Below, one piece after another: positions 4,926 through 55,496 of a stretch of DNA of 64,000 nucleotides. This DNA comes from Bacteroidales bacterium (GTDB taxonomy: Bacteria; Bacteroidota; Bacteroidia; Bacteroidales; Tenuifilaceae). Position numbers and translations under genes: made by a program. The notes beneath the pieces are model-generated. The model worked only from the letters and a program-made list of their open reading frames with translations. It searched no databases and was not told the origin of the DNA. The stretch covers positions 1-64,000 of the forward strand of contig JAFGDZ010000053.1 of the NCBI GenBank assembly GCA_016931855.1, written 5' to 3'. Each line of letters opens with the position of its first letter. Within the stretch, counting starts at the first letter, position 1.

Positions 4926-6797
4926 CTACTCTAATCCAACGCTTTGATTTTTGGGCGACTCAACTGCATAGCCAAACTTAAGCGTCTTGTTTTCGGCTGG
5001 ATTCACGGTTAGCGTCCAATCTATTAACCCATTCTCCGCGTTACGCTGAGCACCGTTAACATTAACGTCCTTAATCTTTATCTCCTCGTTTGTTGATACG
5101 GGTATTTGGTCGCTAATCTTAATTTTGATTGGCTGCTTCTTACCGTTGCGAATGGCAATCTCAAACTCGCGCCTATCGGTAGCTCTGTTGCCAATAAAGT
5201 TCTTCTCGCGGAAGCTCTCCGTCTTTGTTCGCTTAATGCTTATGCTCTCGTCCTTACCAAGTGAAAGGGACAGGGTATCGCCAGCATTCTTTACCTCAAA
5301 AAGGGTACGACCAATGTACTTATCCTCAAAGTAGAGGTTAGCCTCTCCATCAATCAGATTGTGCTTTTGCCAATCGGTTATGCTGGCCATAAGGTACGCT
5401 GCAGGTGTAACCTTTGGAGCGGCAATGTACTGGTAATCGGCAGTAAGCTCTATTTGGTTAAGGGTAACCTGTACTGACCTACCTGTAGAGGGCACATCGT
5501 ATGGTATATCAATTTGGAAGTTAACCGATGTTGAGTACTCAACTTGCGTTGTGGCAACGGGCTTAGGCCTTGGTGCGGCCTTTGCTTTGGGAGCAGACTC
5601 ACGCTTCCTACTGTCGGTACCATATGCCATTACTACTACCTCATCTAGCTGCACATTATCGTACTCCATCCTAAAATCTATACGAGGGGATGCTATTGGC
5701 AGGGTTTGGGTTTTCATTCCAATGAATGACGCTTGAAGGTATCCAGAACCTCTGGGAACTGTCACCCTGTACTCTCCATCAATATTCGTTACGCATCCAA
5801 TGCTTGTTCCGGGAAAGGTTAGCGTAACACCAGGTATAGGTTCACCATCATCGGCACTAACAATACGACCAGAAATACTAGTTATATTGTAGTTTGGCGA
5901 TGCCGTGCTTGATACTGACGATAATCCTCTAATCCTTATATTATTGTACCCCAAGTACCAAGGCAGCAGCTGGGGGTAAATGTTACCATCCTGCGGATTG
6001 CCCGATGATATGGAGAGCTTTATCTTATTCCAATCCTCGCCCGTTGACTGGTACACGTTGGCCTTAAAGGTTAAGTCGATGGGCTGCTCAACGCTCTCCA
6101 CACGGATATCGTATAGCGGGAACCACCCAGCCTGATTAATGAAGTACGATAGGGTTGCCGGTACGCTGGCTGGCTTTTCGGAATCGAGCACAACGGTTAG
6201 CTCACCCGACTCCTTTTTCTCGCCCTTCATAATGTCGCGCATCTGGTTTCCCACCACAGATAGCTCCGTTTGCAGCTTGGCAACCACCTTGTTTTTCTCC
6301 AGCTTCTCGGTCTCAAGAGCACGGAGCTTATCGCGGAAGTAGGCCATGGCTATCTTCAAATCCTCTGGTTTAACGCCCTGCTGGCCGCTAATGTCCTTGT
6401 TTGCCAAAAGCATCTCCTTCTCAGTATCGATACTACCCAACAGCGTACGCTCAAGGCTTATCCGCTCCTGCAGCTCCTCGCTACGTTTCTTTAGGGCGAT
6501 ATAGCTGGGGCTTAGTTCTGTACCATCGGTGCGGTTTATGGTAAAATCAATGGAAATAATGGTAGCATCGCCGCAGGTAAGCTGTATGGACTGCTGGTCC
6601 AACCCAACGGGAAGGTTGGTAAATACCAGCTTATTCTCGCCCTTGGCAAGGGCAAGGGTTGCCTCGCGCTTAACCTGCGCGCCGCTGGTAAACACGGTTA
6701 CCTCCTTTAGCTTTGTATCCAGCTTTTGCTGATTTTGCCCTACGCTAACGCCTATGGCTATCGCTACGGACAGTAGTGTGATAAACGCTTTTTTCAT
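4926..6797 (-). CDS. MuiA-like DUF4139 protein with inserted SusC-type regulatory domain
   Basis: The 623-residue exported protein has a signal peptide (residues 1-20). Its N-terminal part matches the DUF4140 region of mucoidy-inhibitor MuiA-like proteins, including a long charged helix at about 100-190. The C-terminal half matches DUF4139 (FQIDIPYDVPSTGRS, then ENKTLKFGYAVE). Between them, at about residues 305-395, lies a carboxypeptidase-regulatory-like beta-sandwich (ISGRIVSADDGEPIPGVTL, then a G-Y/F-R core) ending in LDEVVVMAYG, the stretch that precedes the plug in SusC receptors. Molecular function is not established for the family; surface or periplasmic location is inferred. The gene is monocistronic. 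Confidence 0.85.
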   Translation of the reverse strand: MKKAFITLLSVAIAIGVSVGQNQQKLDTKLKEVTVFTSGAQVKREATLALAKGENKLVFTNLPVGLDQQSIQLTCGDATIISIDFTINRTDGTELSPSYIALKKRSEELQERISLERTLLGSIDTEKEMLLANKDISGQQGVKPEDLKIAMAYFRDKLRALETEKLEKNKVVAKLQTELSVVGNQMRDIMKGEKKESGELTVVLDSEKPASVPATLSYFINQAGWFPLYDIRVESVEQPIDLTFKANVYQSTGEDWNKIKLSISSGNPQDGNIYPQLLPWYLGYNNIRIRGLSSVSSTASPNYNITSISGRIVSADDGEPIPGVTLTFPGTSIGCVTNIDGEYRVTVPRGSGYLQASFIGMKTQTLPIASPRIDFRMEYDNVQLDEVVVMAYGTDSRKRESAPKAKAAPRPKPVATTQVEYSTSVNFQIDIPYDVPSTGRSVQVTLNQIELTADYQYIAAPKVTPAAYLMASITDWQKHNLIDGEANLYFEDKYIGRTLFEVKNAGDTLSLSLGKDESISIKRTKTESFREKNFIGNRATDRREFEIAIRNGKKQPIKIKISDQIPVSTNEEIKIKDVNVNGAQRNAENGLIDWTLTVNPAENKTLKFGYAVESPKNQSVGLE

Positions 6798-47929: not shown

Positions 47930-48526
47930 CTAGCAACCACCACGGGGCTTATTGCTTATATCTACAACCTTATCGGCAGCAACATGTGGCGCTTCCGTAC
48001 TTGGGCCAACCTTAAATAGCGACTTGTAGTTGTAACGCATTTTCTCATCGTTGCTATACCAAGCCGATGGATTTTGGGTATCAATAAGGCTACTCTGGGC
48101 TATTGGGTAACCACCTGTTAGCACAATAAAGTTGGGATACCCCTCATGCATTAGCATAACAAGTGCCTTTACGGCATCGGCTTCCGAGGCGGCATAAAGA
48201 ATTTTACGGGAGATATTGGACTCCCGTATATCAGCATAATCGGCGCTAAATAGCTCCGAAATGGGTAGGTTAACCGCATTGGGCAGCCTTCCCTTCTTGT
48301 ACTCGGTAGAGTCCCTTACATCAATTAGCAAGTGCTGCTCGCCGCTGGTTATTAGCGCATGTAATTGGGCTATGTTAATGAACCGTTGCTCACTAGTTAG
48401 CTCCTTGGCAATATTCGTGGCCGATTGCTTGTACCCGCTTGTTAGCACCGCCTTTCCAATGATCCCTATTAGGAAAAAACCTGTAAAAACAAGTACTATT
48501 ATGGTTAGCGTTTTGCTGCTTTTCAT
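47930..48526 (-). CDS. Membrane-anchored rhodanese-like protein with RGGC tail and no catalytic Cys
   Basis: The 198-residue protein has one membrane helix (about 8-28) and a rhodanese domain (about 48-145) that should lie in the periplasm. LLIDVRDSTEYKKGRLPNAVNLP is the normal CH2A part, but the active loop reads ILYAASEAD, with Ala112 where the persulfide cysteine belongs. The only Cys is the last residue, in NKPRGGC. It is the last gene of the sulfur operon, 60 bases after the previous one. I infer a sulfur-carrier or docking role through the tail; a structural role is possible. Confidence 0.88.
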   Translation of the reverse strand: MKSSKTLTIIVLVFTGFFLIGIIGKAVLTSGYKQSATNIAKELTSEQRFINIAQLHALITSGEQHLLIDVRDSTEYKKGRLPNAVNLPISELFSADYADIRESNISRKILYAASEADAVKALVMLMHEGYPNFIVLTGGYPIAQSSLIDTQNPSAWYSNDEKMRYNYKSLFKVGPSTEAPHVAADKVVDISNKPRGGC

Positions 48527-48586
48527 CTGAGAAATATTTGTGTTTATACTACCGTTTCCGGCTTATGCGTGCTTACCTAAACTTGG

Positions 48587-49807
48587 TTAACAACCGCCAC
48601 GGCTTGCAACCTTAACCTCCGATTTAGGACTTACAGATGGCACCGTTGCCTGCTTTCTGGTTGCAATGTCAGCCTTGCCCTCTTTAAATATTGTCCTAAC
48701 CCTCTCCCTAAATGCATAGGCCGATTGCGCCTCCATTTTATAGGTTTTGGGTTTCGGGTTTTGGGTTAGGTTGTCGAAAAAGCCATTTAAACCGCCCTTA
48801 AGCACGTAAACATTATCGTAGCCCAGCCTCACTGCCATCATCCAGGCTTTCTCGGCTAAAACGGTTCCGTTTGAGTAAAGCACAACCTTTTGCTCCTTGT
48901 TGCTTAGCGCCGTTTGCCAAGCCCTGCTGGTAACTTGGTTAGCAGGGATGTTTATGGAGCCTGGCAGGGTAAACTCTGCAAAGTCGGCTGCATCGCGAAC
49001 GTCAACAAGCACTATAGGATGATAATCGTAAATAAGCTTATAAGCAACCTCATCGGGGGTAATGTAATGCTTACCAGACATCACAACCTCGTTAAACTCG
49101 ATCTTTGGCAGCTCTTTAATAGATGTTACCCTCTCGTAAGGAATAAAAATTAGCATTACACCCACAATAAGCGCAATGGTTACAGGTAACACGTAGCTCA
49201 TACCCTTTGCATCCTCAAGCGCATTCTCCTTATTCACCTTTTGCTCAATTGCAGCCGTAATGCCAAAAGCAGCCAGCGCCACAGCAATTAGAATAAATGC
49301 AAACCATCCGGCCGATATCCCAAGCGATTCAAACACCAGAATTGGCCCTAAGCTAGAGCCGTTGTATAGCGCTTCAAACATAGGGAATGCCTCTCCAAAA
49401 ATTAGAATACCTATGCCTATTCCAAGCAGGAAAGCCCATGCGTCAATTTTACCTATTGCCGCTGCGGTTACGCTAGTTCCTGGGCAAAATCCACCCAGAA
49501 TAAAGCCCACGCCCATAATTGCACCCCCAACTATTGCCGACCATAAAAAGGTGGGGTTAATGTAAACAAGGCTAATATCAATCATCCCCAGATGATTCAT
49601 TAAGAGTAGCCCCGTCATGGCCGTGATGGCTGCGGTAAAGAACACCCTAAGCACAACAAAATCGTAGCCATAAAAAACGCCAGCCAGCTTACGCGATGAT
49701 GAGAATCCAGCCTGTTCAAGTACATAGCCAAATGCTATTCCAATGAAGAAGGCGAAAAACAGATCCCACTCCATTCCAACAATTCCTGTAGGTATTAATG
49801 GTCCCAT
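48587..49807 (-). CDS. YeeE/YedE-type transporter half fused to a Cys-less rhodanese with RGGC tail
   Basis: The ATG at 49807 gives 406 residues (a TTG at 49825 adds six). Residues about 10-235 hold around eight membrane helices of the YeeE/YedE family, including GFILGGFCPGTSV with Cys108, a residue of the kind that relays thiosulfate in YeeE. A periplasmic or cytoplasmic rhodanese domain follows (about 240-345), but its loop reads VVLYSNGT with Ser312 in place of Cys. A linker (AYAFRERVRTIFKEGKADIA) leads to the C-terminal VASRGGC. It forms one half of a split transporter with the preceding gene. Substrate is inferred. Confidence 0.88.
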   Translation of the reverse strand: MGPLIPTGIVGMEWDLFFAFFIGIAFGYVLEQAGFSSSRKLAGVFYGYDFVVLRVFFTAAITAMTGLLLMNHLGMIDISLVYINPTFLWSAIVGGAIMGVGFILGGFCPGTSVTAAAIGKIDAWAFLLGIGIGILIFGEAFPMFEALYNGSSLGPILVFESLGISAGWFAFILIAVALAAFGITAAIEQKVNKENALEDAKGMSYVLPVTIALIVGVMLIFIPYERVTSIKELPKIEFNEVVMSGKHYITPDEVAYKLIYDYHPIVLVDVRDAADFAEFTLPGSINIPANQVTSRAWQTALSNKEQKVVLYSNGTVLAEKAWMMAVRLGYDNVYVLKGGLNGFFDNLTQNPKPKTYKMEAQSAYAFRERVRTIFKEGKADIATRKQATVPSVSPKSEVKVASRGGC

Positions 49808-49828
49808 AATAATATCGTTTAGCAATTA

Positions 49829-50344
49829 CTATATCCAGAGCTTTCTAAAGAAGTAGGCAACAAGGTATCCAGTGCCAAAAATCGCCATCATGGTAATAAA
49901 ACCTGCCGACGATAGCACCGCCATGCCGCTAAGAGCCGCACCGCTGGTACAGCCGCGACCAAGCTGAGCGCCCAATCCAAACAGAATTCCTCCCAGTATG
50001 GCAAACACAATGCGGGTTGATGAGGTTATTCGAGGCCCTTTATCAACGGTAATTTTTAGCCGCCCCGATAGCGCACCTGAAATAAAGCCGCCAATTAACA
50101 CCCCTAGCACCTCTAGTGCCAACCAAGACTTAAGCGGATGCTCACCCTGGCTAACACGGCTTGCCCAGTATGGCGTTTCGGCTACATGACTTGGCGCAAC
50201 CTTATTTAGCGTTGCCGTTACAACATCTTTAAATGCTCCACTAGCCCCCAACCCTCGGCCAGAGACATAAATTGCACCCAAAAGCACTAAGCCTAGTAAA
50301 ACTCCGGCTACGTATGGATTTAGATATTTGCTCTTTGTTTCCAT
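49829..50344 (-). CDS. YeeE/YedE-type transporter, first half
   Basis: The 171-residue protein has about four membrane helices and the family landmark GAQLGRGCTSGAALSG, with Cys132. Full YeeE/YedE proteins are a pseudo-symmetric pair of such halves, each contributing a Cys to the thiosulfate path. Here the halves are encoded separately: this gene and the next (stop and next ATG are 21 bases apart). It lies 12 bases after the two-domain rhodanese gene. The probable role is uptake of thiosulfate or another sulfur compound across the inner membrane. Confidence 0.9.
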   Translation of the reverse strand: METKSKYLNPYVAGVLLGLVLLGAIYVSGRGLGASGAFKDVVTATLNKVAPSHVAETPYWASRVSQGEHPLKSWLALEVLGVLIGGFISGALSGRLKITVDKGPRITSSTRIVFAILGGILFGLGAQLGRGCTSGAALSGMAVLSSAGFITMMAIFGTGYLVAYFFRKLWI

Positions 50345-50356
50345 TTTTTTGATGAT

Positions 50357-51415
50357 TTAGCAGCCACCACGTGGTTTCTCTACAACATTAACTTGGGGTT
50401 CTAGCGCTTTTGCTACACTGCCGTTACTCCCTGCAACAACGGGGAAGTTAACAATCTCGGCAGGAGTAAATGCGCTATGGATATGCGCCTTTAGCATGAG
50501 CCCATTCATAAAGCCGTTGGCTCCAAACGATAGCGATTTGGCATCGTACCCAAGCACCCTTAGGTAAGCCGTTACAAAGGCGCTATGCTGCCCTGTATAG
50601 CAGTAAACCGCAATGGGGCTATCGGCTGGAAGGGTGCTTAGCTGGGTTGAGCGCTTTAAGCTGCTTTTAGGTTGATAGCGAACTGCACCAGGAATATGGC
50701 CAACCATATAATCAGGTTTAGGCCAGTAGTTTACCACATAAAAACCGTGATTAGGAGCAAAGAGCGTATCGGGTTTTATGTTGGCAACATCGTAACCATC
50801 GGCCAAAACCTGCTGCACACGTTCCCTAAGTATGCTATAGCCCGTGCGGTTTTTAACCAGCAGCCCAGGGAATTTTCCTGCAGGATTCTGCATATTATCC
50901 GTTTGCTCTACCAAGGGCTCGTAGCGGCTCGATATGCGCTTTGCCCAAACGGAGCCATCCTCGGTCCAGCCTCCCATACCCCACTTTAAGGCGTAAACGT
51001 TGCTGTATCCTAACAAACGAATTAAAGAGGTTGCATACGAGGCGGTTTGCCCTGAGTAACAAGTAATTGCTATTTTCTTAAATCCATTCGCATCAACCCT
51101 ATTCTCAAAAAAGTGGAGAAGCCCTTCAAGGGGCACGTTCACTGCATTCTCAATGTGTGCTGCGGCAAACGCCTCCTCATTGCGTATATCAACAACTAAA
51201 TAGCCGCTATCTAGATGCGTGTAAAGCTCCTGTGCCGACATTAGAGCCGGTGTGCTAGGGCCGTTAATAATATCGCCGCTCCTTTCAATATATGTAATTA
51301 ACGAGTCGAATGCCGCTTCATCAGAAATTGATGCACTAGGAGTAACCGCTGGCTTACACATGGTAAGGCCAACCGCAACAAAGCCAAATAAAATGAGAGG
51401 TAGTAGTCTTTTCAT
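50357..51415 (-). CDS. Two-domain rhodanese lipoprotein with RGGC tail
   Basis: The 352-residue protein has a signal with GLTMC (Cys20 is the possible lipid site, although Met at -1 is unusual). It carries two rhodanese domains (about 55-155 and 215-310). Both active loops keep their cysteine: Cys119 in ITCYSGQTAS and Cys272 in VYCYTGQHSA. Between them is a segment GYSILRERVQQVLADGYDVA, which also occurs in the neighbouring YeeE-rhodanese. The protein ends in EKPRGGC. It probably transfers sulfane sulfur in the periplasm, possibly onto the terminal cysteine of itself or the other tailed proteins. Confidence 0.92.
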   Translation of the reverse strand: MKRLLPLILFGFVAVGLTMCKPAVTPSASISDEAAFDSLITYIERSGDIINGPSTPALMSAQELYTHLDSGYLVVDIRNEEAFAAAHIENAVNVPLEGLLHFFENRVDANGFKKIAITCYSGQTASYATSLIRLLGYSNVYALKWGMGGWTEDGSVWAKRISSRYEPLVEQTDNMQNPAGKFPGLLVKNRTGYSILRERVQQVLADGYDVANIKPDTLFAPNHGFYVVNYWPKPDYMVGHIPGAVRYQPKSSLKRSTQLSTLPADSPIAVYCYTGQHSAFVTAYLRVLGYDAKSLSFGANGFMNGLMLKAHIHSAFTPAEIVNFPVVAGSNGSVAKALEPQVNVVEKPRGGC

Positions 51416-51421
51416 AGCGTT

Positions 51422-52075
51422 CTATTTTCTTTCAGCATTAGCCCCATTGCTCAATGATTCCTCTTCATCGTGCTCAAGCTCTTCCCAGCCAGTAATCATT
51501 GCTTTAATAGACTCTAGCGGGGTTTTGCCCGTTGTGGTTAGGTAAACGTGTGCAATAACAAACGCCACAAGGGCAAATGCACCAATGGTATGCACAATGG
51601 CTATAATCTCAAGTCCATCAACATTAATAATCTCTATTTTACCTCCTTGCGGATATCGGTAAAACATATAAAGGATACCCGTTACCACCTGAACTGGAAT
51701 AACTAACACTTTAAGCCCAAGGTATATAATCCGCTGAAGCGGGTTAAACTTATTGTACACCGATTTTTTGGTTGGATGCGGTGCATTCTTAAAAATACCT
51801 GTAATGTAATAGCGAATCTGGTCTCTAATAAAGGCTTTTGTGGGAATGTACTGCCGCCACTCACCAGTAGTAAAGTGCCAAAATATTGCAAAAATGATAA
51901 GCACAATTAACGCCCAGCTGGCAAAGTTGTGCCAGTAAACGGCACTTTCAAAGCCCATTAATGAGAATGAGCTATGAATTTCGAACCCCGTTAGCGCCAA
52001 AAAGAGGATTAGAAAGGCTTGCGTCCAGTGCCAAAACCTCTCAAAAATCTTGTATATATATGTTTTTGTGGCCAT
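51422..52075 (-). CDS. Di-haem b-type cytochrome membrane subunit
   Basis: The 217-residue protein has four membrane helices (about 17-37, 49-69, 120-142 and 159-181) and histidines suited to haem binding: RFWHW, YWHNFASW, FWHF, IVHTIGAF and IAHVYL. It belongs to the cytochrome b561/formate-dehydrogenase-gamma type. It lies 11 bases after the octaheme cytochrome gene and is its likely membrane partner, taking electrons from menaquinol and passing them to the octaheme protein. The acidic C-terminal tail is cytoplasmic or periplasmic; I cannot decide which. Confidence 0.9.
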   Translation of the reverse strand: MATKTYIYKIFERFWHWTQAFLILFLALTGFEIHSSFSLMGFESAVYWHNFASWALIVLIIFAIFWHFTTGEWRQYIPTKAFIRDQIRYYITGIFKNAPHPTKKSVYNKFNPLQRIIYLGLKVLVIPVQVVTGILYMFYRYPQGGKIEIINVDGLEIIAIVHTIGAFALVAFVIAHVYLTTTGKTPLESIKAMITGWEELEHDEEESLSNGANAERK

Positions 52076-52086
52076 AAACTATTCTC

Positions 52087-53682
52087 CTATAAGTTCTGTT
52101 GTTGTTCTTTTCGCTTTTTCGATGCCAGTACTCGCAGCGCACCATGCCCCATTACACCTAGCATAGATAGAACGATGATTAGCGTTCCAGCTAAATCAAC
52201 GGTTTTATTCCTATCGCGTCCAGGCAAATAGAAATCGGTGAGCCCAGCAAGGCGTGAGTTCTCTCTGGTATGGCACTCGTTGCAGCTAACCGTACTCTCC
52301 TTTGGCGATACCATGTGGCTAATTGGTAGGTACATCTCTGTTTCTACAAACTCCCACTCGCCACTATAAGGTACCTCTATGTACTCCATGCCTTCTTTTA
52401 GCGCTTCTTCCCAGTTAAAATCAACCCATAAGGCACCCTTGTTCTTCTCGTCATCCCAGAGCTTTGCTTGGAGCAAACGCTTGTAGTTCTTGTCCATGGG
52501 CTGCTTTCCACGGTGAATCTTTACTGGCCAAATCTTTGCCGTAGGATCGTTGTACTCACCATAAAGGGTGTTTATTTTAACGGGGAACTCTGTTAGGGAA
52601 TCGGTAATAAGCGTGTGATTAGCCTGACCATTAAACCAAGCATACTCTGGTTTAACATTGTTTGCCCATTGAGCCGTTCCTTTAATGGACTGATAGGTTT
52701 TATTACCCAACGAGTCTGTTTCCTCATAGGGTTGCCCGTCTCTCATGCCTGTTGCAGTGGACCAATCCCAGTACATTTTGGTTGAGTTCACCTTAGCATA
52801 TACTGGGATATGGCAGGCTTGGCAGGTTACTTTTATGCTATGCTCATTAAGGATGCTCTTTTCGTGAGGGAAATCGCCATGGCACTGCTCACAGGTAGCC
52901 CTATTGTAGTCGTTAGAGGCGGTTCCGTAGTAACGGCCATTCATCACATGGTTTTTGGTCTCATGGCAATCGGTACAGCTCATATCCATACCCTCAGTGG
53001 TCATATGCACATCAACATCGCGGCTACAGTCAAGTAAAGCCTCCTCTAGGTGCCCGTGTTTAATGTTATTTCCTCCTGCACTATAGAAATGGCAATACCC
53101 GCAGTTGTACTTTGTAGGTTTACCTATATTAGCTGTAATGTGCTTATAATCGGGCTTAAGCGGCCCTTCCATGTATGGGTAGCCAGAGCCTCCCGAGGCT
53201 TTCTCGTAAGTCTCGGTATTGTCGTGACAAACAATACAATCCACATTAAGCTCATTGGTAAAATCGAAGGACTTATCGCCCCAACCAAAGCCAGCGTGGC
53301 ACTTGTTACAGCTTCCCTCGCTACTCCGTATTCCTGTACAGTAGTTGTTTAGCAGGTTCTTTTTCCCAAGAGACACAACCCCTCTGCCCTCAATAAACGA
53401 TTCCCGCTCCCACAACCAGTGATGTGTGGACATTACCTCTTTTGCCCTACCCGTATGGCAGGCCAAGCAAGCGGCAGTAACCTCTTGTGGGGTTTTAAAG
53501 TCCTTGTGCAACTCGGCAAATTGACCATGGTCAACCGCTTTTTGGGGTTTAGAAAGAACCCGTTGCTTTAGCTCCTCTATTTGCGTTGCTCCATCACCAT
53601 CCGATTTGCTCAAAATAGCGATGGCCAGAAATATCTGAGGGACTATAACAATAATTAAGAATGGTATTAGTTTGCGCCTCAT
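52087..53682 (-). CDS. Tetrathionate reductase-family octaheme cytochrome c
   Basis: The 531-residue protein has an N-terminal signal or anchor (about 5-24) and eight CxxCH haem sites, with cysteines starting at residues 72, 125, 149, 194, 236, 264, 287 and 467. The spacing and the long gap before the last site follow the octaheme tetrathionate reductase (OTR) family. Unlike soluble Shewanella OTR it has a C-terminal membrane helix (about 496-516). The family can reduce tetrathionate and also nitrite or hydroxylamine in vitro. The rhodanese and YeeE genes downstream make a sulfur substrate the better inference here. It is the first gene of the operon. Confidence 0.93.
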   Translation of the reverse strand: MRRKLIPFLIIVIVPQIFLAIAILSKSDGDGATQIEELKQRVLSKPQKAVDHGQFAELHKDFKTPQEVTAACLACHTGRAKEVMSTHHWLWERESFIEGRGVVSLGKKNLLNNYCTGIRSSEGSCNKCHAGFGWGDKSFDFTNELNVDCIVCHDNTETYEKASGGSGYPYMEGPLKPDYKHITANIGKPTKYNCGYCHFYSAGGNNIKHGHLEEALLDCSRDVDVHMTTEGMDMSCTDCHETKNHVMNGRYYGTASNDYNRATCEQCHGDFPHEKSILNEHSIKVTCQACHIPVYAKVNSTKMYWDWSTATGMRDGQPYEETDSLGNKTYQSIKGTAQWANNVKPEYAWFNGQANHTLITDSLTEFPVKINTLYGEYNDPTAKIWPVKIHRGKQPMDKNYKRLLQAKLWDDEKNKGALWVDFNWEEALKEGMEYIEVPYSGEWEFVETEMYLPISHMVSPKESTVSCNECHTRENSRLAGLTDFYLPGRDRNKTVDLAGTLIIVLSMLGVMGHGALRVLASKKRKEQQQNL

Positions 53683-53991: not shown

Positions 53992-54744
53992 CTAATCGCC
54001 GTATCTAAGCCTTTTGGCCAGCTTTGAAGCAAATACAAAATCGTTAAGCTCAACATTATCGCTTTGCAGAATCTCCTCTTTTGTTCCTTCCCACCACTTT
54101 TTCCCTTGGTATATGTATATGATTTTATCGCCAATCCCCATTACCGAGTTCATATCGTGGGTATTAACAATTGTGGTCATGCAGTACTCCTCAGTAATTT
54201 CCTTAATCAGATTATCAATAACAATTGAGGTTCGTGGGTCTAATCCAGAATTGGGCTCATCGCAAAAGAGGTACTTCGGATTAAGGGCAATGGCGCGCGC
54301 AATAGCAACACGTTTTTGCATTCCCCCACTAATTTCCGAAGGGTAAAGGTTATTGGCATTTACAATATTTACCCGCTTAAGGCAGATGTTTGCCCGCTCG
54401 CGCATCTCATCCTCACTCATATCGGTAAACATCTCCAACGGATACATTACATTCTCCTCAACAGTAGCAGAATCGAAAAGAGCCCCCCCTTGGAAAAGCA
54501 TTCCCACCTGCTTGCGTAGCGCTTTTTTCTCCCTAAAATCAAGCTTGTTAAAAAGAATGTCGTCGTAATATATTAACCCCTCATCAACAGCGTGTAGCCC
54601 AACTATTGATTTTAGCAAAACGGTCTTTCCCGAACCACTCTGACCAATAATCAGGTTAGTTTTACCAGGCTCAAAAACAGCAGATATATCATCAAGCACA
54701 ACGCGGCCATCAAACGACTTTAGAATGTGGTCAACCCTTATCAT
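53992..54744 (-). CDS. mlaF: Mla-type ABC transporter ATP-binding protein
   Basis: The 250-residue ATPase has GQSGSGKT (34-41), the signature ISGGMQKR (about 138-145) and Walker B YLFCDEPNSGLDP (about 158-170). The DEPNSGLDP form and the match to MlaF/Mkl-like proteins mark the family that moves phospholipids between membranes with an MCE-domain protein. The start codon overlaps the stop of the permease gene (ATGA). No MCE-protein gene is in the window, so the third component must lie elsewhere. Confidence 0.9.
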   Translation of the reverse strand: MIRVDHILKSFDGRVVLDDISAVFEPGKTNLIIGQSGSGKTVLLKSIVGLHAVDEGLIYYDDILFNKLDFREKKALRKQVGMLFQGGALFDSATVEENVMYPLEMFTDMSEDEMRERANICLKRVNIVNANNLYPSEISGGMQKRVAIARAIALNPKYLFCDEPNSGLDPRTSIVIDNLIKEITEEYCMTTIVNTHDMNSVMGIGDKIIYIYQGKKWWEGTKEEILQSDNVELNDFVFASKLAKRLRYGD

Positions 54745-55496
54745 GAGAGTAGCATTTGGGTAAGTATCAGGTTAAACAGTAGAATTACAACGCTACTTGA
54801 TACTACTGCTTTAGTGCTAAACTTGCCAACCTCCAATGAGCCGCCCGTTACACTGTAACCGTAATAAGATGACACCGATGTAATTATAAAGGCAAAAACC
54901 TCTGTTTTTATAATAGCGTACAGTATGTAGTAGGGAATAAAAGCGTATTGAATTCCGTTAATATACTCTTGCGAAGAAACAACACCTGCAGCAACTCCAG
55001 CAATCCACCCACCTAAAACGCCAACAATCATACTTAGCATGCACAAAAATGGGTTAAAAAGTAGTGCTGCCACAATCTTAGGGAGTATAAGGTAACTTGC
55101 GGAGTTAACGCCCATTATTTCAAGGGCATCAATCTGCTCCGTTACGCGCATTGTACCCAGCTCAGAGGCAATCTGCGATCCAACCTTACCCGCTAGTATT
55201 AGCGCAACAATTGTTGATGAGAACTCCAGCAGAATGCTATCGCGAGCAGCTAACCCAATTAGGTAAGAAGGCAGAAGAGGATTCTCTGTATTATAGGCTG
55301 TTTGAATAGTTATAACAGCCCCCATAAAAAAAGAAATTATAGCTACAATCCCAATGGAATTAAGGCCTAAGTTCTCTATCTCCTTTACAACCTGCTTATA
55401 ATAGATCTTCTTTTTCTCGGGACGGGCAAAAACTTTCCCCAGCAAGAGGATGTAAGAGCCCAACGTATTAAAGAATCGCATAGTGTACATAGTCAT
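54741..55496 (-). CDS. mlaE: Mla-type ABC transporter permease
   Basis: The 251-residue permease has about five hydrophobic segments and family landmarks VVKEIENLGLNSIGIVAIISFFMGAV, GKVGSQIASELGTMRVTEQIDALEIMGVNS and a C-terminal SYYGYSVTGGSLEVGKFSTKAVVSS. These match MlaE, the inner-membrane core of the lipid-asymmetry transporter. Translational coupling to the ATPase gene supports a shared complex. Lipid direction cannot be told from sequence. Confidence 0.92.
   Translation of the reverse strand: MTMYTMRFFNTLGSYILLLGKVFARPEKKKIYYKQVVKEIENLGLNSIGIVAIISFFMGAVITIQTAYNTENPLLPSYLIGLAARDSILLEFSSTIVALILAGKVGSQIASELGTMRVTEQIDALEIMGVNSASYLILPKIVAALLFNPFLCMLSMIVGVLGGWIAGVAAGVVSSQEYINGIQYAFIPYYILYAIIKTEVFAFIITSVSSYYGYSVTGGSLEVGKFSTKAVVSSSVVILLFNLILTQMLLS

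Follow-up and report, generated by a model that had tools for sequence, protein, structure and literature searches.

GGC is the functional motif of the carrier protein SoxY (PMC11237559). In lucinid symbionts soxY-S3 and soxZ lie beside otr, the gene for octaheme tetrathionate reductase (OTR) (PMC11237559), and in Hyphomicrobium a SoxYZ fusion gene lies near pmpAB, in a cluster that its authors assign to alcohol catabolism (PMC11582611), so that OTR and split YeeE both have a GGC carrier as a recurrent neighbor; PmpA and PmpB typify YeeE halves with one conserved Cys each (PMC11582611). In an Acidobacteriota microcosm, otr transcription increased 36-fold with tetrathionate (PMC8528874). Rhodaneses have been placed with Psr, the secreted ones of Desulfurivibrio being assumed to serve it (PMC12142623), and in Caldithrix Psr is encoded near two single-domain sulfurtransferases (PMC5317091). 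Reviews of selenoproteins list rhodanese and YeeE selenoproteins, with selenocysteine at other motifs (PMC13188914, PMC9312934). In the full-text literature, which covers subscription journals thinly, the matches listed held no description of a GGC-ended or thiol-relocated rhodanese. Here we analyze an operon that encodes such proteins, located in a stretch of 64,000 nucleotides (the window; positions 1 to 64,000 of contig JAFGDZ010000053.1, assembly GCA_016931855.1) from a Bacteroidales bacterium of the Tenuifilaceae. Three rhodanese proteins of this operon, termed RR, YR and R1, end exactly in Arg-Gly-Gly-Cys (RGGC), and in YR and R1 the catalytic rhodanese Cys is absent.

The operon runs on the minus strand from 53682 to 47930 and comprises six genes with 3 to 60 bases between neighbors, in the 5' to 3' order OTR, cytochrome b561, RR, YE, YR and R1. 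Its features are as follows.

52087 to 53682, minus strand: OTR, octaheme tetrathionate reductase family cytochrome c of 531 amino acids (aa), by TIGR04315, PDB 1sp3 and CXXCH count
51422 to 52075, minus strand: membrane subunit of cytochrome b561 type (PF01292, E 1.8e-27)
50357 to 51415, minus strand: RR, two-domain rhodanese of 352 aa (PF00581), predicted lipoprotein with the lipobox-like sequence LTMC
50360 to 50371, minus strand: RGGC tail codons of RR, from the sequence
49829 to 50344, minus strand: YE, PmpA-like YeeE half with Cys132 (PF04143, E 6.6e-21, profile positions 174-309 of 310)
48587 to 49825, minus strand: YR, PmpB-like YeeE half fused to a rhodanese domain, 412 aa (PF04143, profile positions 10-190, and PF00581)
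48590 to 48601, minus strand: RGGC tail codons of YR, from the sequence
47930 to 48526, minus strand: R1, membrane-anchored rhodanese of 198 aa (PF00581, E 8.8e-13)
47933 to 47944, minus strand: RGGC tail codons of R1, from the sequence

The preliminary description of this DNA had reported that the three proteins share the exact RGGC end with differing codons, and both statements hold: the ends are EKPRGGC in RR, VASRGGC in YR and NKPRGGC in R1, encoded by CGT GGT GGC TGC TAA, CGT GGC GGT TGT TAA and CGT GGT GGT TGC TAG, respectively. Chance does not explain these ends. Across the genome, the DNA pattern GGNGGNTGYTRR has 59 occurrences and the reversed control pattern 52, and examination of all pattern matches with a real stop yielded four open reading frames (ORFs) of at least 60 aa ending in GGC in the 4.08 Mb assembly, three of them from the operon. 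The fourth (L261, 1129-1512; L-numbers are labels of the loci examined) encodes a very basic, lipoprotein-like protein of 127 aa with the end KKGKGGC and no convincing Pfam match. Other rhodaneses of the genome lack the RGGC end and terminate in NLFI, in EGKEKS or, in a small protein, in a Cys-rich GGCC; by resemblance, we take the first to be CoA-disulfide-reductase-like and the second MnmH-like. A tail produced by chance or by recent copying is ruled out by this pattern scan, by the differing codons and by the counts among relatives given below.

Exact as far as it went, that description had overlooked the loss of the catalytic rhodanese Cys from R1 and YR. The R1 loop reads ILYAASEA, with Ala at the catalytic position, and Cys198, the final residue of the tail, is the sole Cys of the whole protein. 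YR has Ser at this position (loop VVLYSNGT) and contains only Cys114, in the YeeE half, and Cys412. RR carries both catalytic residues, Cys119 and Cys272, in the loops CYSGQ and CYTGQ, together with Cys20 in the lipobox-like site and Cys352. All three proteins belong to the rhodanese superfamily fold (PF00581), a fold search with R1 returned rhodaneses as the closest solved folds, and the AlphaFold models of R1 and YR each have a confident rhodanese domain. R1 and YR are rhodanese folds and not canonical sulfurtransferases.

Of 60 genomes searched as relatives, 25 gave matches to YR. A query built from 19 aligned YeeE halves, searched against genome contigs, matched at least 575 relatives, of which the best 80 were used; a single-protein query gave no match in the same contig collection. 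The counts cover the loci nearest to the operon's YeeE family, remoter YeeE clusters lying outside them. A rhodanese is described as near or beside YeeE when it lies within 5 kb of this YeeE family, and as tailed when it ends in GGC followed by zero to two residues. The catalytic position was read from an alignment to a rhodanese hidden Markov model anchored on the CYSGQ loop of RR. Protein counts exclude duplicate or near-duplicate loci (L058, L060, L061, L091 and L124), the fragment L056, ORFs running off a contig and ORFs sharing an identical last 70 aa; L057 is also excluded, one of its two tailed proteins re-entering via L147 and the other (at 5283) staying out. The control rhodaneses are a non-random set, composed of listed rhodanese loci, 40 hand-picked regions (about the first ten picked for their resemblance to sulfur clusters) and rhodaneses more than 5 kb from YeeE in other loci. 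A further sample, centered on OTR, contains 40 loci from the 43 above-cut-off OTR matches outside the genome of the operon.

The tail was found in 164 of 178 rhodaneses near YeeE versus 8 of 73 other rhodaneses, and 1788 ORFs of other kinds (100 aa or more) from the loci yielded no example; the Fisher value, 7e-37, takes no account of shared ancestry. Tail-less homologues, which the preliminary description had named as the observation that would count against it, make up only the remaining 14, so that the description passes this check. Eight are two-domain proteins (L040, L055, two each in L131, L136 and L137), and the other six are from L126 (end VGPL), L086 (LVGC), L246 (GGLCS), L040 (a fused protein, GGVKR), L055 (single-domain) and L095, the last a 91-aa ORF with the catalytic Cys present. 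The fused YeeE-rhodanese proteins are tailed in 75 of 79 cases. When YeeE-centered and OTR-centered loci are taken together, at least one tail is present in 107 of the 110 with a complete rhodanese near YeeE, and every counted near-YeeE rhodanese is tailed in 35 of the 41 loci that hold two or more. The tailed loci carry six phylum labels, Bacteroidota, Ignavibacteriota, Fidelibacterota, Acidobacteriota, candidate division LCP-89 and Armatimonadota, the last represented by one possibly misassigned bin.

Several variants stand beside this pattern. L131, L136 and L137 each have two extra tail-less two-domain rhodaneses beside the YeeE pair, with both catalytic Cys kept. The two-domain rhodaneses of L151 and L176 have catalytic Cys and GGC tails (EEGGC and QQGGC), and neither this family's YeeE nor YedE was detected in the stretches examined. 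Two of the eight tailed rhodaneses away from YeeE have Cys-rich GGCC ends (L006 and L183); these two (268-699 in L006) and those in L190, L197 and L206 are small rhodaneses with no evident signal peptide and with Cys-rich tails (CGCCSGGCC and similar), perhaps for metal binding or sulfur relay. Two plasmid records with a YE-like gene stand outside all counts. The Gemmatirosa plasmid (L250, 9000-9660) encodes a YeeE pair and a Cys-less rhodanese (loop VLYSEGG) ending in RRRGC, possibly a one-Gly variant of the tail in Gemmatimonadota; on the Sulfuricella plasmid a YeeE pair was found and a rhodanese was not detected.

The tail is accompanied by a change at the rhodanese active site. The catalytic Cys is absent from 145 of the 146 tailed single-domain proteins beside YeeE, its position being occupied by Ala (54), Ser (53), Gly (33), Asp (3), His (1) or Tyr (1), whereas 45 of the 48 single-domain rhodaneses that have no tail and lie away from YeeE keep this Cys. 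Over all single-domain rhodaneses counted, 145 have the tail and no catalytic Cys, 7 have both, 8 have neither and 46 have the Cys without the tail. The two-domain proteins differ: all 18 tailed ones near YeeE have at least one catalytic Cys, and 15 have both. With the loop Cys lost in nearly all tailed single-domain proteins beside YeeE, many retain the tail Cys alone. In 56 of 75 fused proteins the final 190 aa contain no other Cys, and the same is true of everything after residue 40 in 45 of 71 unfused proteins. As judged from the sequences, the tail Cys of the single-domain proteins replaces the rhodanese active-site Cys rather than supplementing it. Absence of the loop Cys accompanies the tail in this module, although a tail by itself can occur on an active rhodanese.

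The tail is a C-terminal extension of 39 to 70 residues beyond the domain end (median 53). No residue is as frequent as Lys at positions -10 to -5 relative to the Cys, and the residues preceding GGC are variable. In the near-YeeE set the Cys is followed by one residue or none, the stop codon coming directly after it in 130 of the 146 tailed single-domain proteins. Two alignments were built from tailed proteins only. In that of 70 fused proteins the rhodanese half is invariant at just P288, G410, G411 and C412, and C114 is invariant in the YeeE half; in that of 33 R1 proteins the invariant columns are M1, G129, G196, G197 and C198. Confidence in the AlphaFold models falls in the tail, to a pLDDT below 50 at residues 402-412 of YR and to about 56-67 from about residue 151 of R1, with values of about 56-65 over its final 30 residues. 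These low-confidence tails, lowest in YR, fit a mobile arm. The mobile arm first proposed for this operon is thus supported in part, by the models and by the retention of the tail among relatives, and is to be revised in that the thiol would be a replacement and not an addition.

The rhodanese parts and their tails are predicted to be extracytoplasmic. R1 has one predicted membrane helix (6-24) and RR a lipoprotein-like start. Of the tailed proteins near YeeE, 70 of the 71 unfused single-domain ones and 16 of the 18 with two domains carry, by a simple hydropathy rule, a hydrophobic segment or a lipobox-like site at the N terminus, which would place the tails outside; the three without one are L040_9214, L064_1 (which runs to the contig end) and L065_7328. 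The YR rhodanese domain would likewise lie outside, since the sixth predicted helix of YR matches the anchor of the unfused form. The same location is expected for OTR and for the Psr-like enzyme found at other loci, on account of the c-type hemes of the former and, for the latter, of an Arg-Arg motif close to the N terminus, seen in 22 of the 27 Psr-like proteins longer than 600 aa.

The OTR of the operon scores 536.6 bits against TIGR04315 (cut-off 375), matches the Shewanella OTR structure (PDB 1sp3) with E 2.9e-111 and contains eight CXXCH motifs and, as read from its sequence, a hydrophobic stretch at the N terminus; OTR was found in 42 of 296 genomes of the phylum. The adjoining cytochrome b561 subunit is presumed to be the electron link from quinol to OTR. 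Of 95 YeeE-centered loci, OTR, its cytochrome b or both were found in 55 and a Psr-like subunit in 32, with 3 loci belonging to both groups and 11 to neither (some contigs being short); 84 loci thus combine the module with OTR/cytochrome b or a Psr-like molybdoenzyme. The fused form occurs in all 54 OTR/cytochrome b loci with a counted rhodanese and separate proteins in all 28 such Psr-only loci, with one more locus of each kind lacking a counted rhodanese; this division may reflect lineage. In the OTR-centered loci, which were not chosen by YeeE, YE and YR were found in 23 of 40, and all 23 YR proteins have a near-terminal Cys, in 22 as GGC followed by at most one residue and in one as GGLCS. 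The suggested link to the octaheme cytochrome is therefore real but not exclusive, and a system specific to the octaheme enzyme is too narrow a description, given the Psr-like genes at 32 of 95 loci and the OTR loci without the module. Just upstream of the operon, at 53992-55496, lie genes for ATP-binding and permease proteins that resemble the Mla/YrbE type.

We favor, with a probability of roughly 0.7, a model in which the GGC tail is a swinging arm for sulfur, mounted on a catalytically dead rhodanese, that delivers sulfur to the split YeeE channel or withdraws it from there, beside a periplasmic sulfur reductase. The quinol pool would supply electrons to OTR by way of cytochrome b561, or at other loci to PsrA by way of PsrBC, and OTR or PsrA would reduce an S-S bond in the periplasm. 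RR, with its two catalytic Cys kept, would load or unload sulfane sulfur, and R1 and the rhodanese half of YR, folds without a catalytic Cys, would present the working thiol at the end of an extension that is often Lys-rich and predicted to be partly disordered, as in the unrelated GGC carrier SoxY. The arms could then shuttle sulfur, as Cys-SSH or Cys-S-SO3, between the reductase, RR and the channel opening of the split YeeE, a putative transporter of sulfur compounds whose channel Cys would be YE Cys132 and YR Cys114; one arm, that of YR, would be tethered to the channel. Of this, the conservation of the tail, the loss of the loop Cys and the linkage of the genes are observed, the topology, the rhodanese fold and the disorder of the tail are predicted, and persulfidation of the tail Cys, the sulfur chemistry and the direction of flow, into the cell or out of it, are inferred. 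A further proposal, less likely than not, is that the true substrate of OTR or the Psr-like enzyme in these bacteria is the sulfane or thiosulfonate group on the GGC arm of the dead rhodanese, which would make this a respiratory system for protein-bound sulfur and a reductive counterpart of the Sox cycle, with a carrier invented independently through relocation of the active thiol of a rhodanese to the tail. We know of no report of Shewanella OTR acting on a protein-bound substrate.

A number of observations weigh against the swinging-arm model. We know of no biochemistry for these proteins. Seven single-domain proteins have both a GGC end and the catalytic Cys, so loss of the Cys is not required for the tail; four are small and lipoprotein-like (L147, L153, L167 and L168), two have GGCC ends (L006 and L183) and one is from this module (L054). 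The four small proteins end in SGGCGG, or in SSGGGC in L167, and the rhodaneses beside them are untailed; full-length YedE is encoded in the clusters of L147 (as L057, which also has a porin) and of L153/L168, and was not detected in the L167 stretch. Eight of the 26 two-domain rhodaneses beside YeeE have no tail. In 17 of the 40 OTR loci no YeeE, rhodanese or GGC-ended neighbor (at least 80 aa, within about 7 kb) was found, and at two Pseudomonadota plasmid OTRs the locus scan flagged only OTR and cytochrome b. A TusA-like ORF was present in none of the 95 loci (ORFs from 50 aa, two own-genome TusA seeds, no DsrE search), so that import would need a cytoplasmic acceptor encoded outside the clusters; the genome of the operon has two TusA matches elsewhere, one inside a CoA-disulfide-reductase-like protein. 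The counts are also phylogenetically non-independent. A tree of 292 rhodanese domains over 103 columns, its resolution too poor for counting independent gains, gives 8 independent tail-differing pairs on supported branches, and about 7 of these show no difference in the catalytic Cys.

The alternatives fare less well. An unlikely one is that disulfides between tail thiols, or between these and YeeE, gate the channel or assemble a complex, with no sulfur carriage. Two or more tailed proteins are encoded at 38 of the 107 tailed loci, where tail-to-tail disulfides would be possible, and the YR tail is tethered to the channel; however, 69 of the 107 have a single counted tailed protein, so that no partner tail is needed, this explanation would not account for the missing catalytic Cys in the tailed single-domain proteins, and the genes adjoin those of sulfur reductases. 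The strictly C-terminal position of the motif would suit a sorting or covalent anchor signal recognized by a processing or lipid-transfer enzyme, which we consider very unlikely, since nearly all unfused and two-domain tailed proteins already have an N-terminal stretch or lipobox, the Cys may precede S, E, G, A, T or GG, and the tail is confined to rhodaneses among the counted ORFs. We give no more credit to a metal site, in which the Lys-rich linker and GGC would bind a soft metal (Cu, Hg or Cd) and the proteins would be metal chaperones: single Cys tails can bind such metals and other rhodaneses in the same genomes are truly Cys-rich-tailed, but near YeeE the tail Cys is mostly the sole extracytoplasmic Cys and the neighboring genes are for sulfur enzymes. 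A functionless relic of gene duplication, with the tail copied along with the genes, is highly implausible, for although the R1-like and YR-like domains are both PF00581 and could share tail ancestry, which the tree does not resolve, GGC is constant while the preceding residues diverge, the codon sets are three and differ, and two-domain proteins and other clusters have tails as well.

The swinging-arm model, if true, would mean that protein-bound sulfur carriers of the periplasm have evolved independently in a second form, would explain the rhodaneses without catalytic Cys in these sulfur-respiration clusters and would provide a testable physiological setting for octaheme tetrathionate reductase, with its cognate carrier. 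A terminal GGC on a rhodanese beside split YeeE would serve as the sequence mark of the module in Bacteroidota, Ignavibacteriota, Acidobacteriota, Fidelibacterota and others.

The likeness to SoxY and DsrC noted at the outset extends to the C-terminal GGC shared with SoxY and not to the domains. The SoxY domain PF13501 is absent from R1, YR and RR in a Pfam scan at E 0.001, and no Pfam or NCBIfam match to DsrC was found in them at the same threshold; a SoxY search of the genome also gave no match, and since control genomes likewise gave none, this does not demonstrate absence. Membership of the SoxY, DsrC or ubiquitin-like carriers is rejected for want of a domain match, the last (ThiS/MoaD/QbsE type, a beta-grasp with C-terminal GG) also because the module proteins have a rhodanese fold and an N-terminal anchor instead. 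Like SoxY and SoxYZ, the proteins are predicted to lie outside the cytoplasm and have a Gly-Gly-Cys arm at the C terminus, and many have no other extracytoplasmic Cys; some rhodaneses of other clusters even end in SGGCGG, GGCGG being the SoxY ending. Unlike SoxY, they have the rhodanese fold, are fused or adjacent to YeeE and are partnered with reductase families. They share the fold and the D-x-R residues with rhodanese sulfurtransferases (PF00581), and their genes adjoin Psr-type enzymes as do those of the Psr-linked periplasmic rhodaneses, but their thiol is on the C-terminal tail, a feature not mentioned in the available sections of the Desulfurivibrio and Caldithrix reports. As with PmpA/PmpB, and with TsuA/SoxT, the two half-size YeeE proteins correspond to the two halves of the family (PF04143) with one Cys each, Cys114 in YR and Cys132 in YE, yet in this operon a rhodanese with a GGC arm is fused to the C terminus of the PmpB-like half. 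The OTR resembles that of Shewanella in its family score and heme motifs and differs in being encoded together with a putative carrier module. The module thus joins two known kinds of protein, the GGC sulfur carrier and the rhodanese.

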